This document shows positions 5,534 through 17,617 of a stretch of DNA of 24,033 nt, piece after piece; position 1 is the stretch's first letter, and the number at the start of each line of letters is the position of its first letter. The notes beneath the pieces are model-generated. The model searched no databases. It had not been told where the DNA came from and saw nothing but the letters and a program-made list of their open reading frames with translations. The DNA is taken from positions 1 through 24,033 of the IMG/VR virus record IMGVR_UViG_3300025810_000083; one strand, written 5' to 3'. This stretch comes from a virus. A program made the position numbers and the translations under genes.

Positions 5534-6406
5534 ATGAATCATGGCAGTTTATTCTCAGGGATTGGAGGCTTTGATTTAGCCGCTGAATGGGCGGGATTTA
5601 CAAACCTCTTTAATTGCGAGTGGGAAGAGTTCCCTCGCAAAGTCCTCAAACACCATTTCCCCAATGCAGAACAATTCGAAGACATCAAAGACTTTAACGC
5701 GACAGCTTACTCTGGAAGACTTGATATACTCTCAGGAGGGTTTCCCTGCCAACCGTTCAGCGTTGCAGGAAAACGAAAAGGCTCAGAAGATGAACGCCAC
5801 TTGTGGCCAGAGATGCTTAGAGTTGTCGGAGAGTGTAAGCCCCGTTGGGTCGTGGGCGAGAACGTTCGCGGGCTTGTTAATTGGTCGGACGGATTGGTTT
5901 TCGAAACGTGTTGCGCTGACTTGGAAGCTATCGGGTACTCCGTCCAATCGTTTATTATTCCTGCTTGTGCCACAGGCGCGCCCCACCGAAGGGACAGAGT
6001 TTGGATTGTTGCTCACTCCGACAACTTCGGAACCCGTTCACGACTTGGAGAAATTCAAAGCGAGGATGGAGAAATACCCGAACGGAACAACGATGCCCAA
6101 CCTTGCAACACAAGTTCACGGAATGCTCCCGACACCAGTCAAGAGCGACCATCAAAACCGATGGAAGACAGAGAACTGGGACGGGACAAGCGATTTACCG
6201 AGCGTTATAAACACTGCGCTTGGAACGGGTTCCCAACTGTCCCCCCTATTTGTGGAGGAGATGATGGGCTTCCCAAAGAACTGGACGGTATTACCTTTCC
6301 AAAATGGAGAAGAGAATCAATCAAAGGATACGGAAACGCCATAGTGCCGCAAGTGGCTTACAGGATATTTCAAAGCATACAGGATTACGAAGCCATGTTA
6401 AAATAA
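5534..6406 (+). CDS. dcm: DNA cytosine-5 methyltransferase
   Basis: 290 aa. Transfers a methyl group from S-adenosylmethionine to C5 of cytosine in a specific DNA site. Motif I is FSGIGGFD (7-14, SAM binding), motif IV is GGFPCQPFS (68-76) with catalytic Cys72, motif VI ENVRGL (109-114), motif VIII RRDRVWIVA (152-160), motif IX region GLPKELDG (245-252), motif X GYGNAIVPQVAYRIF (265-279). Residues 161-235, where the target-recognition part should be, are hydrophilic and low in hydrophobic residues, and are read in another frame as well (5664-6344). No cognate endonuclease is nearby, so it is an orphan enzyme, probably protecting phage DNA from host restriction. G+C looks higher than in the neighbours, hinting at transfer. 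Confidence 0.92.
   Translation: MNHGSLFSGIGGFDLAAEWAGFTNLFNCEWEEFPRKVLKHHFPNAEQFEDIKDFNATAYSGRLDILSGGFPCQPFSVAGKRKGSEDERHLWPEMLRVVGECKPRWVVGENVRGLVNWSDGLVFETCCADLEAIGYSVQSFIIPACATGAPHRRDRVWIVAHSDNFGTRSRLGEIQSEDGEIPERNNDAQPCNTSSRNAPDTSQERPSKPMEDRELGRDKRFTERYKHCAWNGFPTVPPICGGDDGLPKELDGITFPKWRRESIKGYGNAIVPQVAYRIFQSIQDYEAMLK
5664..6344 (+). CDS. Overprinted protein inside the methyltransferase gene, 226 aa
   Basis: Open reading frame of 226 codons wholly inside the methyltransferase gene, one base out of phase (+1). Its translation looks like a real protein, not a shadow: LEDLIYSQEGFPANRSALQE, CGQRCLELSESVSPVGSW, WKLSGTPSNRLLFLLVPQ, a repeated LLTPT / MLPTPV motif, and LSPLFVEEMMGFPKNWT near the end. 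I recall the same 'LLPTP...QL-P-F-V-E-E-M-M-G-F-P-x-x-W-T' series in other phages, also overlapping dcm genes. In the same stretch the methyltransferase frame is low in hydrophobic residues. The ATG at 5664 is the likely start, but entry by frameshift from the methyltransferase frame is possible. Function unknown; perhaps a partner or the target-recognition unit of the enzyme. Confidence 0.6.
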   Translation: MQNNSKTSKTLTRQLTLEDLIYSQEGFPANRSALQENEKAQKMNATCGQRCLELSESVSPVGSWARTFAGLLIGRTDWFSKRVALTWKLSGTPSNRLLFLLVPQARPTEGTEFGLLLTPTTSEPVHDLEKFKARMEKYPNGTTMPNLATQVHGMLPTPVKSDHQNRWKTENWDGTSDLPSVINTALGTGSQLSPLFVEEMMGFPKNWTVLPFQNGEENQSKDTETP

Positions 6407-6928: not shown

Positions 6929-8091
6929 AACAACCTAAAACGTATTACGACCTAATCAACTGCAAAACAAGGATAGCAGTTTTTCAAGGTGGCACCCGTA
7001 GTGGCAAGACGTTCTCAATCATCACGGTGTTATGTCAGTGGTGCTACGAGAACCAAAACGCTGGTTACCTCATCACCATAGTTCGTAAGAGTTTTCCATC
7101 ACTTCGTGCTTCGGTCATGCGTGACTTCCTGTTTATCTTAGACAGGGAGGGGTGGTACGACGAACGCAACCACAACAAGACAGAAAACACTTATGCTCTA
7201 TTTGGTAACACTATAGAGTTTATTTCAATTGACCAGCCACAAAAAATTCGTGGGGCTACTCGACAATTTTTCTTTGCAAACGAGGCGAACGAGCTGGATT
7301 TGGAGACGTATCGACAACTGGCACTAAGAACATCAAACAAGCTAGAAGGCCCAAGCATCATACTAGACTACAACCCCAGTGATGAATACTCTTACATATA
7401 TGATGACATCATACCTAGAGAAGATGCTACGTTTTACAAGTCTACCTACCTTGATAATCCGTTCTTAAACAAAGAGACAATTGATGAAATCGAACGGCTA
7501 AAAGAAACCGACGAATATTACTGGACGGTTTACGGTTTAGGTGAGCGAGGTGTAAGCAGGCAGACTATTTTCCGAAGTGACATTTATACAGAGCTTCCAG
7601 AGCATGCTAAGTTCTTAGCGTGGGGTTTAGACTGGGGCTTTGCCAACGATCCTACAGCCTTAGTAAAGGTTTATGAGTATGACAACGCCATATATATTGA
7701 GCAGTTCCTATACAGTGGTGGATTGACTAACGGTGATATTGCAGAGAAGATGCAGGAGCTGGGTATCACACGTCATGAAGAGATAATAGCAGACAGCAGT
7801 GAGCCGAAAAGTATTGAGGAGATTCACAGGATGAATTTCAATATTAAACCTGCTAAGAAAGGCCCAGACTCTGTACGTATTGGCATAGATTTGATGAGGC
7901 GTAAGAAGATATATGTAAAGGAAACTAGCCTCGACGCACAAAAGGAATTCCGCAACTACAAGTGGATGACGGATAAAAACGGAAAGGTGCTAAATACTCC
8001 ACGAGATGATTGGAATCACTGTGTCGATGCTGTTAGATATGTATGCCTAAACAAGCTATTAAGACGAACTGGTAAATACTTTGTGCAATGA
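6925..8091 (+). CDS. terL: Terminase large subunit (ATPase-nuclease)
   Basis: 388 aa, GTG start in a GTGA overlap. It packages phage DNA: the N-terminal ATPase drives translocation and the C-terminal nuclease cuts the concatemer. Walker A is GGTRSGKT (22-29); Walker B-like strand FFFANEAN (115-122) with Glu120; motif III LDYNP (147-151). The nuclease domain starts at WGLDWGFANDPTAL with Asp236, followed by IIADSSEPK with Asp290 and DDWNHCVDAVRY with Asp361/362, His365 and Asp368, all as expected for the RNase-H-like fold. Length and motif spacing fit the PBSX/Terminase_3 class. It overlaps the tail chaperone gene by four bases. Confidence 0.95.
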   Translation: MKQPKTYYDLINCKTRIAVFQGGTRSGKTFSIITVLCQWCYENQNAGYLITIVRKSFPSLRASVMRDFLFILDREGWYDERNHNKTENTYALFGNTIEFISIDQPQKIRGATRQFFFANEANELDLETYRQLALRTSNKLEGPSIILDYNPSDEYSYIYDDIIPREDATFYKSTYLDNPFLNKETIDEIERLKETDEYYWTVYGLGERGVSRQTIFRSDIYTELPEHAKFLAWGLDWGFANDPTALVKVYEYDNAIYIEQFLYSGGLTNGDIAEKMQELGITRHEEIIADSSEPKSIEEIHRMNFNIKPAKKGPDSVRIGIDLMRRKKIYVKETSLDAQKEFRNYKWMTDKNGKVLNTPRDDWNHCVDAVRYVCLNKLLRRTGKYFVQ

Positions 8092-15744: not shown

Positions 15745-15790
15745 TAGGTATATTTATAAGTAGAGGGTTTTGTGAATGCAGCTTATTTGC

Positions 15791-15822
15791 TTGTATATAT
15801 GTATAAATTTATGTATATTTTG
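15791..15822 (+). promoter_or_regulatory. Candidate Bacteroidota-type promoter for the small-gene array
   Basis: TTG at 15791-15793 followed after 20 bases by TATATTTTG at 15814-15822, one base off the TAnnTTTG consensus. The stretch 15745-15838 is A+T-rich and holds no gene. Transcription would start near 15829, and the leader TAAACATAAAGAA precedes the ATG at 15839, which resembles the linker TAAACAACAGAGAT used between the array genes. Confidence 0.55.
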
Positions 15823-15838
15823 CTATAAACATAAAGAA

Positions 15839-16030
15839 ATGGATATTTTAGTACACGAACACTGGCGCGACGTAGAGCATGTATTGAAGCTGCACGATCT
15901 TGACGTGTATGTTTTGCACTACAGAAGCAAAGGCATGATGGCATGTGTTGTAGAGGCTGATAGTATTATGGCAGCTCAAGACATTCTAGAGGTTATGCAC
16001 GCAAACGGATTTGACGCAACACAAGTTTAA
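15839..16030 (+). CDS. Array gene 1: small acidic protein, 63 aa
   Basis: First of seven small genes. I place the start at the ATG at 15839, after the candidate promoter, not at 15776. By eye it has alpha (DVEHVLKLHD), beta (LDVYVLHYRSKG), beta (MMACVVEAD), alpha (SIMAAQDILEVMHANG) and beta (FDATQV) elements, with net charge near -7. No family recognised. Its stop begins the first identical linker. A single Cys, no metal motif, no signal peptide. Function unknown; the setting suggests a host-takeover or counter-defence role. Confidence 0.65.
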   Translation: MDILVHEHWRDVEHVLKLHDLDVYVLHYRSKGMMACVVEADSIMAAQDILEVMHANGFDATQV

Positions 16031-16041
16031 ACAACAGAGAT

Positions 16042-16284
16042 ATGAGAAGCACACCATTAGCAGAATTGGAATACTACGACGAGGGCGCAACGATTCTAAC
16101 CGATTGGGAGGCTGAGGAATTTGTCATGGACGAATTCAGTTACGAGATGAGCAACGACATTCAAATCGTTTTTATCAGCGGAATCAGCAGCGCAATCTAC
16201 GTAGGAGAAAAAGCGTACGACGCAAACCAGCCTATGTGGGACGCGTACGAATACGCAAAGCAATATGACGACAGCAAAGTATAA
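16042..16284 (+). CDS. Array gene 2: small acidic protein, 80 aa
   Basis: Starts directly after the linker TAAACAACAGAGAT. Very acidic, net charge about -14 by count, with DWEAEEFVMDEFSYEMSND and a hydrophobic strand IQIVFISGISSAIYVG, then an aromatic helix PMWDAYEYAKQYDDS. I recognise no family. It is the least like the other members in layout (long acidic N-terminus before the strand). The charge and aromatic pattern are like a DNA-mimic protein, which is a guess. Confidence 0.65.
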   Translation: MRSTPLAELEYYDEGATILTDWEAEEFVMDEFSYEMSNDIQIVFISGISSAIYVGEKAYDANQPMWDAYEYAKQYDDSKV

Positions 16285-16295
16285 ACAACAGAGAT

Positions 16296-16565
16296 ATGGC
16301 ATTCAATTACAATCAATATATGGCAGACGTTGACGAGTTTATTAGCTTGGTTGAGTCTGAAGGTTACAGATTAGGTTATCATGACGAAAGAGATTCTATG
16401 ATTAACTTCTCACCTGATGACCCTTTGGATATGCGAGGATCATTTGAACACGAGGATATCATTGAAGAAATTGCTGACGAAGTTTTCCCTGTTAAGTGGA
16501 TTACAGAAATTAAGACAATAGGACGAGGAGAAATTATTGTTAAGTACACTGACCTTTATATCTAA
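16296..16565 (+). CDS. Array gene 3: small acidic protein, 89 aa
   Basis: Starts after an identical linker. By eye: helix DVDEFISLVESEG, strand YRLGYHDERD, strand SMINFSPDD, acidic turn, helix HEDIIEEIADEVF, strand PVKWITEIKTIGRG and strand EIIVKYTDLY. Net charge about -14. No known family recognised. The alpha-beta-beta-(loop)-alpha-beta-beta order matches genes 4, 5 and 7. Confidence 0.65.
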   Translation: MAFNYNQYMADVDEFISLVESEGYRLGYHDERDSMINFSPDDPLDMRGSFEHEDIIEEIADEVFPVKWITEIKTIGRGEIIVKYTDLYI

Positions 16566-16576
16566 ACAACAGAGAT

Positions 16577-16825
16577 ATGTACGAAGAAGTATTTGGTTTT
16601 TTACAGGAAGTTTTTCCAAGAGTCATTGAAGATGGTGACGGAACTTTTCGCGTTTCAGGCGAAGACCCTAGTGCAAAATACAATGGGCGCAGAGCCTTGG
16701 ATTATTATGCTACAAGTAGTGATTACGACTTAGGCGTTTATTTGCCGTTCTTAGACGAACTAGAAGACATGGGTTACTTTGTCGAATGGTGGGATGCAGG
16801 AACTGCGATTGTCGCACCACTTTAA
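16577..16825 (+). CDS. Array gene 4: small acidic protein, 82 aa
   Basis: Starts after an identical linker. Helix MYEEVFGFLQEVFP, strand RVIEDGDG, strand TFRVSGED, a Tyr/Ser-rich loop, helix LPFLDELEDMG, strand YFVEWWDAG and strand TAIVAPL. Net charge about -12. The motif 'helix-D-M-G-Y-x-V-E' is shared with gene 6 (FVDMGYEVENIGY). No known family recognised. Confidence 0.65.
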   Translation: MYEEVFGFLQEVFPRVIEDGDGTFRVSGEDPSAKYNGRRALDYYATSSDYDLGVYLPFLDELEDMGYFVEWWDAGTAIVAPL

Positions 16826-16836
16826 ACAACAGAGAT

Positions 16837-17064
16837 ATGAGAGAAATATTTATTAAAGCAATAGAAGCGTTTGGTGTACCGTATACAATTACGTATGACC
16901 AAGGAAATATGATTCTTGCTCAAGTTGATTTTAGCGATATTTTTTTTGGTCAAAATGATGTAGATGATTTGCAAGATTGGATGGCGCATGAAGTCGGCAT
17001 ACCAATTTATGATCTTATTCTAGAGGAAAATCGAGATGGCGTACAAGTAGGAATAGACTACTAA
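16837..17064 (+). CDS. Array gene 5: small acidic protein, 75 aa
   Basis: Start set at the ATG right after the linker (16837), not at an upstream in-frame ATG at 16786 that lies inside gene 4. Helix MREIFIKAIEAFG, strand VPYTITYDQGN, strand MILAQVDFSD, loop, helix DVDDLQDWMAHEVG, strand IPIYDLILEENRD and strand GVQVGIDY. Net charge about -12. No known family recognised, same layout as genes 3, 4 and 7. Confidence 0.65.
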   Translation: MREIFIKAIEAFGVPYTITYDQGNMILAQVDFSDIFFGQNDVDDLQDWMAHEVGIPIYDLILEENRDGVQVGIDY

Positions 17065-17075
17065 ACAACAGAGAT

Positions 17076-17357
17076 ATGATTGCTTACCGTATCTATGACA
17101 TAAAGAAAGACGAAGTGTATGATGCTATTTATGAAGGCTATCTAACAACGCCTTTGTTTGATGTGTCTAGAGGTGAAGCAAACAATTTGATGGATGGGTT
17201 AGAAATCACGCATAAGAGAAAAGGAAACTATACAGATGTCGCATTGTACGGTTCGGGATATGCTACAGTGCAAAGTAAGTTAGTAGAAGAAGAATTTTTA
17301 TTGACTATTGAGGCATTTGTAGACATGGGATACGAGGTAGAAAATATTGGATACTAA
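17076..17357 (+). CDS. Array gene 6: small acidic protein, 93 aa
   Basis: Starts after an identical linker. Opens with a strand-like MIAYRIYDIKKDEVYDAIYE, then LFDVSRGEANNLMDGLEI, a charged turn HKRKGNY, a strand DVALYGSGYATV, and helix KLVEEEFLLTIEAFVDMGYE. It is the least acidic large member (about -9) and has more Lys. The closing helix plus 'DMGYEVE' repeats the pattern of gene 4. Function unknown. Confidence 0.65.
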   Translation: MIAYRIYDIKKDEVYDAIYEGYLTTPLFDVSRGEANNLMDGLEITHKRKGNYTDVALYGSGYATVQSKLVEEEFLLTIEAFVDMGYEVENIGY

Positions 17358-17368
17358 ACAACAGAGAT

Positions 17369-17617
17369 ATGGCAGCTTGGGAAAGACATTACGGAGATTT
17401 TGAAAGCCTAATTGAAGCGCACATTTTTCGACCATCACAACTAGACTCTGGCACAGAGTTAATTGAGTTTTACGATGGCGATTCAAAAAATCCTCCACAC
17501 GCTGTTATCGAGTGTGGCGATAAACAATCAGCTATACATTGGGCAAACGTCTTAGGGGATTGGGGGGCATGGACAGAAGTACAAGGGACAGAAGTGTACG
17601 TAGAACCTTACGCATAA
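17369..17617 (+). CDS. Array gene 7: small acidic protein, 82 aa
   Basis: Last member preceded by the identical linker. Helix DFESLIEAHIF, strand ELIEFYDGDSKNP, strand HAVIECGD, helix KQSAIHWANVLGDWG, strand AWTEVQG, strand TEVYVEPY. Net charge about -11. Same order as genes 3-5. The linker series ends here: its stop is followed by AAAAAAAGAC and the ATG of the prohead protease at 17627. Confidence 0.65.
   Translation: MAAWERHYGDFESLIEAHIFRPSQLDSGTELIEFYDGDSKNPPHAVIECGDKQSAIHWANVLGDWGAWTEVQGTEVYVEPYA

Follow-up and report, generated by a model that had tools for sequence, protein, structure and literature searches.

A reading frame nested in a phage C5-cytosine methyltransferase gene as the probable motif IX and target-recognition subunit of a split enzyme

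A second reading frame under selection

Does a long open reading frame inside a phage cytosine methyltransferase gene encode a protein, and what would such a protein do? The question is raised by a viral sequence of 24,033 nucleotides (positions 1 to 24,033 of IMG/VR record IMGVR_UViG_3300025810_000083, hereafter called the window). An initial annotation, made from the letters alone, had pointed to a 226-codon +1 frame at 5664-6344 within the methyltransferase gene and had suggested either an independent partner protein or use of the region through frameshifting. The frame is present as claimed; ORF comparison places it entirely within the methyltransferase ORF (alpha), in frame +1 relative to alpha, and its proposed product is termed beta. 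The elements on which the argument draws are the following:

5534..6406, + strand: alpha, large (catalytic) subunit of a C5-cytosine methyltransferase, 290 aa (PF00145, phrog_363, HhaI match, AF2)
5664..6344, + strand: beta, proposed small-domain subunit, nested +1-frame ORF of 226 aa starting with ATG (phrog_1008, conservation and constraint)
5664..5666, + strand: proposed beta start ATG, alpha codon 44 (alternative-frame ATG at codons 44-55 in homologues)
5735..5761, + strand: alpha motif IV, GGFPCQPFS, with the catalytic Cys72 and the overlying beta PANRSAL (four-fold divergence 0.38 and 0.29)
5895..5927, + strand: conserved WFSKRVALTWK of beta, first strand of a predicted beta-hairpin (invariant W78/W87, AF2)
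6006..6122, + strand: beta module 1, LLLTPTTSEPVHDLEKFKARMEKYPNGTTMPNLATQVHG, 39 aa (module cluster 0, in 59 proteins)
6014..6229, + strand: alpha linker, codons 161-232, of low constraint and predicted to be disordered, where monomeric enzymes have their small domain (divergence, AF2)
6123..6236, + strand: beta module 2, MLPTPVKSDHQNRWKTENWDGTSDLPSVINTALGTGSQ, 38 aa (module cluster 3, found in 20 proteins, not always at the same position)
6237..6287, + strand: beta motif IX, LSPLFVEEMMGFPKNWT, at the C-terminus, with PICGGDDGLPKELD as passenger in the alpha frame (hhalign, divergence)
6323..6358, + strand: alpha motif X, KGYGNAIVPQVA, where synonymous constraint is back at background

The +1 frame is free of stops over 254 codons, from about 5580. 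When the codons of alpha were reshuffled synonymously, a +1 frame open over 254 codons or more arose in 1 of 20,000 sequences with the codon usage of the family and in 0 of 20,000 with that of the window, and the longest +1 stretch averaged about 80-87 codons. By this null the frame is beyond chance.

Homologous loci were collected twice, with the nested protein as query and with the methyltransferase alone. A check for homologues in which the +1 frame is full of stops or diverges neutrally returned the opposite: none of the 65 distinct homologues retrieved with alpha as the sole query has lost the frame, which is open and similar in all of them, and their +2 frame holds 4-30 stops; synonymous sites, treated below, are constrained. 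All 83 alpha/beta ORF pairs have the relative frame +1, and so do all 325 viral and bacterial loci (a redundant set), 80 of which are cellular (Bacillota, Bacteroidota, Alphaproteobacteria, Chloroflexota). Further nested loci were found in Pseudomonadota genomes and in Cronobacter, Klebsiella, Edwardsiella, Salmonella, Vibrio, Mycobacterium, Microbacterium and Synechococcus phages, and tblastn with beta gave matches in 70 phage records. The statement, in the initial annotation, that the same motif series overlaps dcm genes in other phages is borne out for many of them. A sequencing frameshift as source of the nested ORF is excluded, since the arrangement recurs in hundreds of loci; the single-stop exceptions (L073, in alpha; L080, in beta) are taken as decay or errors. 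No beta gene standing apart from alpha was seen among the loci examined. The Roseovarius genome G001 carries five near-identical copies of the nested locus (L209-L214), as if by multicopy prophage carriage. Elsewhere in the window (15776-17617), seven small ORFs of 80-93 aa follow one another in a single direction, with no clear mutual similarity.

The nested arrangement is widespread and mostly misannotated. In Cronobacter phage JC01 (L326 1342-2316), GenBank calls the nested beta frame a DNA methyltransferase and misses the catalytic ORF, and in Escherichia phage phiEc4 (L333 1195-2007) the GenBank methyltransferase is the beta frame, the catalytic ORF in the other frame being missed. Beta homologues are already in databases, as a methyltransferase or as a hypothetical protein without stated role: phrog_1008 ("DNA methyltransferase") matches beta with E 3.6e-21, and gp51 of Paenibacillus phage Rani, annotated "g50 internal gene", is a beta homologue. 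We found no description of this wide nested class in the literature that we covered, which is an incomplete part.

Selection was followed at the four-fold degenerate sites of alpha in 37 independent pairs of aligned homologues, the check that the initial annotation had itself named. Divergence is 0.142 inside the overlap versus 0.364 outside, and lower inside in 32 of the 37 pairs (sign p 7e-6). The suppression begins near alpha codons 41-58, ends near codon 257 and is broken at codons 65-82, the catalytic FPCQPFS region. In codons 161-232 and 233-256 it is position 1 of alpha, the wobble position 3 of beta, that diverges fastest; therefore the nested frame is constrained there and the methyltransferase frame is a passenger. 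Amino acid identity over the linker region is 0.49 in the main frame versus 0.64 in the alternative frame, and the conserved-looking GDDGLPKELD of alpha is FVEEMMGFPKNWT read one base out of phase. The stretch is dual coding, and both frames are under purifying selection, as had been proposed. A chance ORF is ruled out by the shuffle and the synonymous-site tests. The motifs first quoted for the nested frame are all present, and the LTPT/LPTP repeats and LFVEEMMGFPKNWT are truly constrained, whereas PANRSAL is little constrained: it is mostly a by-product of the alpha sequence FPCQPFS, because the four-fold sites there (0.38 and 0.29) vary almost as freely as those beyond the overlap.

Motif IX and exchangeable modules outside the catalytic frame

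Alpha is recognized by PF00145 (E 2.3e-47) and phrog_363 (E 1.2e-76) and contains motifs I, IV (PCQ), VI (ENV), VIII and X of C5-cytosine methyltransferases. It lacks an in-frame motif IX and a small domain with a target-recognition domain (TRD). In sequence search only residues 5-164 of alpha match HhaI, at residues 16-174, and Foldseek of the AF2 model of alpha also matched M.HhaI. This model (pTM 0.68) has a mostly confident catalytic domain and a C-terminal helix, with residues 165-225 disordered at a pLDDT of about 30. The suspicion that the methyltransferase frame has no normal target-recognition part in the overlap was therefore well founded, given the missing motif IX, the low pLDDT over 165-225 and the end of the HhaI match at residue 164.

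Motif IX lies in beta, not in alpha. Within it, divergence at alternative-frame positions 1, 2 and 3 is 0.03/0.08/0.19. The C-terminus of beta aligns by hhalign with phage methyltransferases that carry motif IV, FVEWMMG(L/F)P and motif X all in one frame (prob 96.7, E 4.2e-10); the alignment of beta to the canonical motif IX RRLTPxExxRxxGFPDxW is weak taken alone (prob 22%, E 9.6e-4). Beta has no match in Pfam or NCBIfam, and a PDB profile search with it gave nothing meaningful. AF2 predicts the hairpin with a pLDDT of 76-82 over residues 81-100. The model of beta alone is poor overall (pLDDT 59, pTM 0.24), Foldseek with it returned no match, and it neither supports nor excludes that beta may fold on alpha as its partner.

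The distribution of motif IX was followed in an IMG/VR sample of near-complete methyltransferase genes, drawn with a DNA pattern for one spelling of the motif GFPCQPFxxAG. Among the matches listed, 94 of 102 genes contain the nested ORF, and in none of these 94 is a motif IX in frame. The remaining 8, which lack the nested ORF, are monomers of the ordinary kind that do carry motif IX (recognised by pattern in 7, by eye in L477); the nested ORF and the monomeric form exclude each other in this sample. After removal of redundancy at 70% identity, the nested ORF is found in 84 of 92 listed genes. The nested share of 92% is not a census, because it covers the matches listed and a single spelling of the motif.

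The part of beta that lies between the predicted hairpin and motif IX contains 1-5 segments with a median of 39 aa, each beginning near (L/M)xTP. The target-recognising domains of multispecific methyltransferases are near 40 aa each. Module families of beta recur at different positions and across backbones down to 33% identity, and of the 363 protein pairs whose backbones are at least 80% identical (pairs that are not independent of each other), 158 have no module family in common. The modules thus stand in tandem and are exchanged between enzymes, as in the multispecific type. By this analogy, the LPTP modules are probably target-recognition units.

Probable initiation inside alpha and the competing explanations

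An alternative-frame ATG at alpha codons 44-55 occurs in 79 of 79 homologues, versus 63% (maximum 73%) under synonymous shuffling. The codon-44 ATG of the window is shared by 26 of the 79 and an ATG at codon 48 is commoner; the start given above is therefore a candidate. A Shine-Dalgarno sequence of at least 5 nt precedes 21.6% of the start candidates versus 3.3% of internal controls (80 genome loci, mostly Bacillota). Internal initiation fits these observations and frameshifting does not, because constraint starts at a conserved ATG, often with a Shine-Dalgarno sequence in the Bacillota copies.

Programmed frameshifting, in which the ribosome would leave the alpha frame after its N-terminal part, continue in the +1 frame through the C-terminal part and then return for motif X, had been one of the two uses first suggested for the region. 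In-frame fused forms in other phages speak for it, and so does contig L547, where an ORF passes mid-gene from alpha into the beta frame and ends in motif IX, be it by fusion, decay or assembly error. The +1 constraint already begins at codons 44-58, however, far upstream of a useful shift point and next to the conserved ATG. The beta stop also lies 53-107 nt before the alpha end in nearly all loci, with motif X incomplete at that point, so that the ribosome would have to shift a second time to read it. We regard frameshifting as very unlikely. That constraint and codon bias in the methyltransferase frame kept the +1 frame open passively is hardly credible: methyltransferase motifs alone do lengthen +1 ORFs, as the monomers of Streptococcus phages MM1 and 5093 illustrate and as PANRSAL does here, but the shuffle null, the suppressed four-fold divergence and the beta codon-position pattern in codons 161-256, with alpha as passenger, speak against it, and the synonymous-site results refute it.

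Beta could also be a separate protein with a job of its own, for example in anti-restriction or regulation, whose gene simply happens to overlap that of the methyltransferase. In favour of this, beta possesses a start region and a constraint of its own, and nesting alone does not prove that it joins the enzyme. Against such a separate role, motif IX is found in beta exactly where alpha lacks it (94 versus 8, among the matches listed), other phage methyltransferases carry homologues of the beta C-terminus in frame at their own C-termini, and beta was found only together with alpha among the loci examined, which makes this explanation improbable. Most likely, the nested ORF encodes the beta subunit, with target recognition and motif IX, of an obligate heterodimer resembling M.EcoHK31I. 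The notion of a partner protein hence holds, although not that of an independent one; beta would more precisely be the missing motif IX and target-recognition subunit of the same enzyme.

According to this heterodimer model, one DNA stretch would encode a split C5-cytosine methyltransferase. Alpha (5534-6406) would supply the SAM-binding catalytic domain and motif X, and beta (5664-6344), presumably translated by internal initiation inside alpha in the +1 frame, would be the small domain, in which a scaffold and motif IX are joined by exchangeable modules of ~39 aa, one to five in number and two in this case. The two chains would bind each other and both would be needed for the active enzyme, which may methylate the phage DNA, most likely against host restriction.

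Relation to known methyltransferases and significance

A split of this kind has precedents. In M.EcoHK31I, motifs I-VIII and X are on the larger of two chains while the smaller one carries motif IX, and the predicted TRD is placed in alpha, not in beta (PMC3404938). It is a heterodimeric C5-methyltransferase for YGGCCR, and the phage locus likewise puts motif IX on the smaller product: alpha has motifs I-VIII and X minus IX, motif IX is on the small subunit, and the gene of the latter is nested in another frame. The smaller EcoHK31I gene was reportedly described by Lee, Kam and Shaw in 1995 as nested in the larger one in another frame, with both chains needed. That the present system works like M.EcoHK31I would, by this analogy, be the best explanation. 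In contrast to M.EcoHK31I, a single restriction-system enzyme with its TRD predicted in alpha, the present class is found in phages and prophages from several phyla and has recognition-like modular repeats in beta. In M.AquI, too, the catalytic part and the motif IX part are on separate chains (PMC3404938), but the split lies inside the variable region and motif X is on the small subunit. The multispecific Bacillus phage enzymes SPR, H2 and phi-BssHII are described, in the part of PMC8936443 that cites Wilke 1988, as having several tandem target-recognising domains per enzyme; these are single in-frame chains, whereas here the repeats, of putative specificity function, are in a nested +1 subunit.

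Totally overlapping C5-methyltransferase ORFs with two products in different frames have been reported for Streptococcus phages 5093 and MM1 and for Tn5252 (PMC5601072). We rejected the MM1 and 5093 overlap (L578 7480-8637 / 7631-8056; L577 6067-7026) as the same arrangement, since motif IX is still in the main frame there and the +1 ORF is short, covering the first half; it is therefore a different overlap. Some nested-class alphas, at L340 4976-5722 (- strand) and similar IMG/VR loci, are about 249 aa long with CSGIAG as motif I and resemble M.BatI. This Bacillus prophage enzyme is 20-30% smaller, with a CxGxxG motif I, a short TRD and catalysis-independent toxicity (PMC8936443). By analogy we predict that batIM may hide a +1 beta that bears on the odd specificity of M.BatI; the M.BatI gene was looked for in Bacillales genomes without success.

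The arrangement was known earlier from one two-part bacterial enzyme; that it is common in phages is new here. With more reserve than for the single locus, it seems probable that a large part of the phage and prophage C5-methyltransferases are obligate heterodimers in which the catalytic gene also holds, wholly in its +1 frame, the coding sequence of the specificity subunit, and that specificity is changed by swapping 39-aa modules which the catalytic frame tolerates as disordered linker. It is rare for two essential parts of one enzyme to share a large and ancient overlap on the same strand, and here such an overlap would occur in many phages and in several bacterial phyla. Of the two frames, annotation usually retains one, sometimes the wrong one. 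Codon-optimised or mutated phage C5-methyltransferases are predicted to fail, because beta is destroyed, and specificity would have to be read from the hidden frame. For evolution, the family may serve as a test case of how modules are exchanged in one frame while the other stays open.
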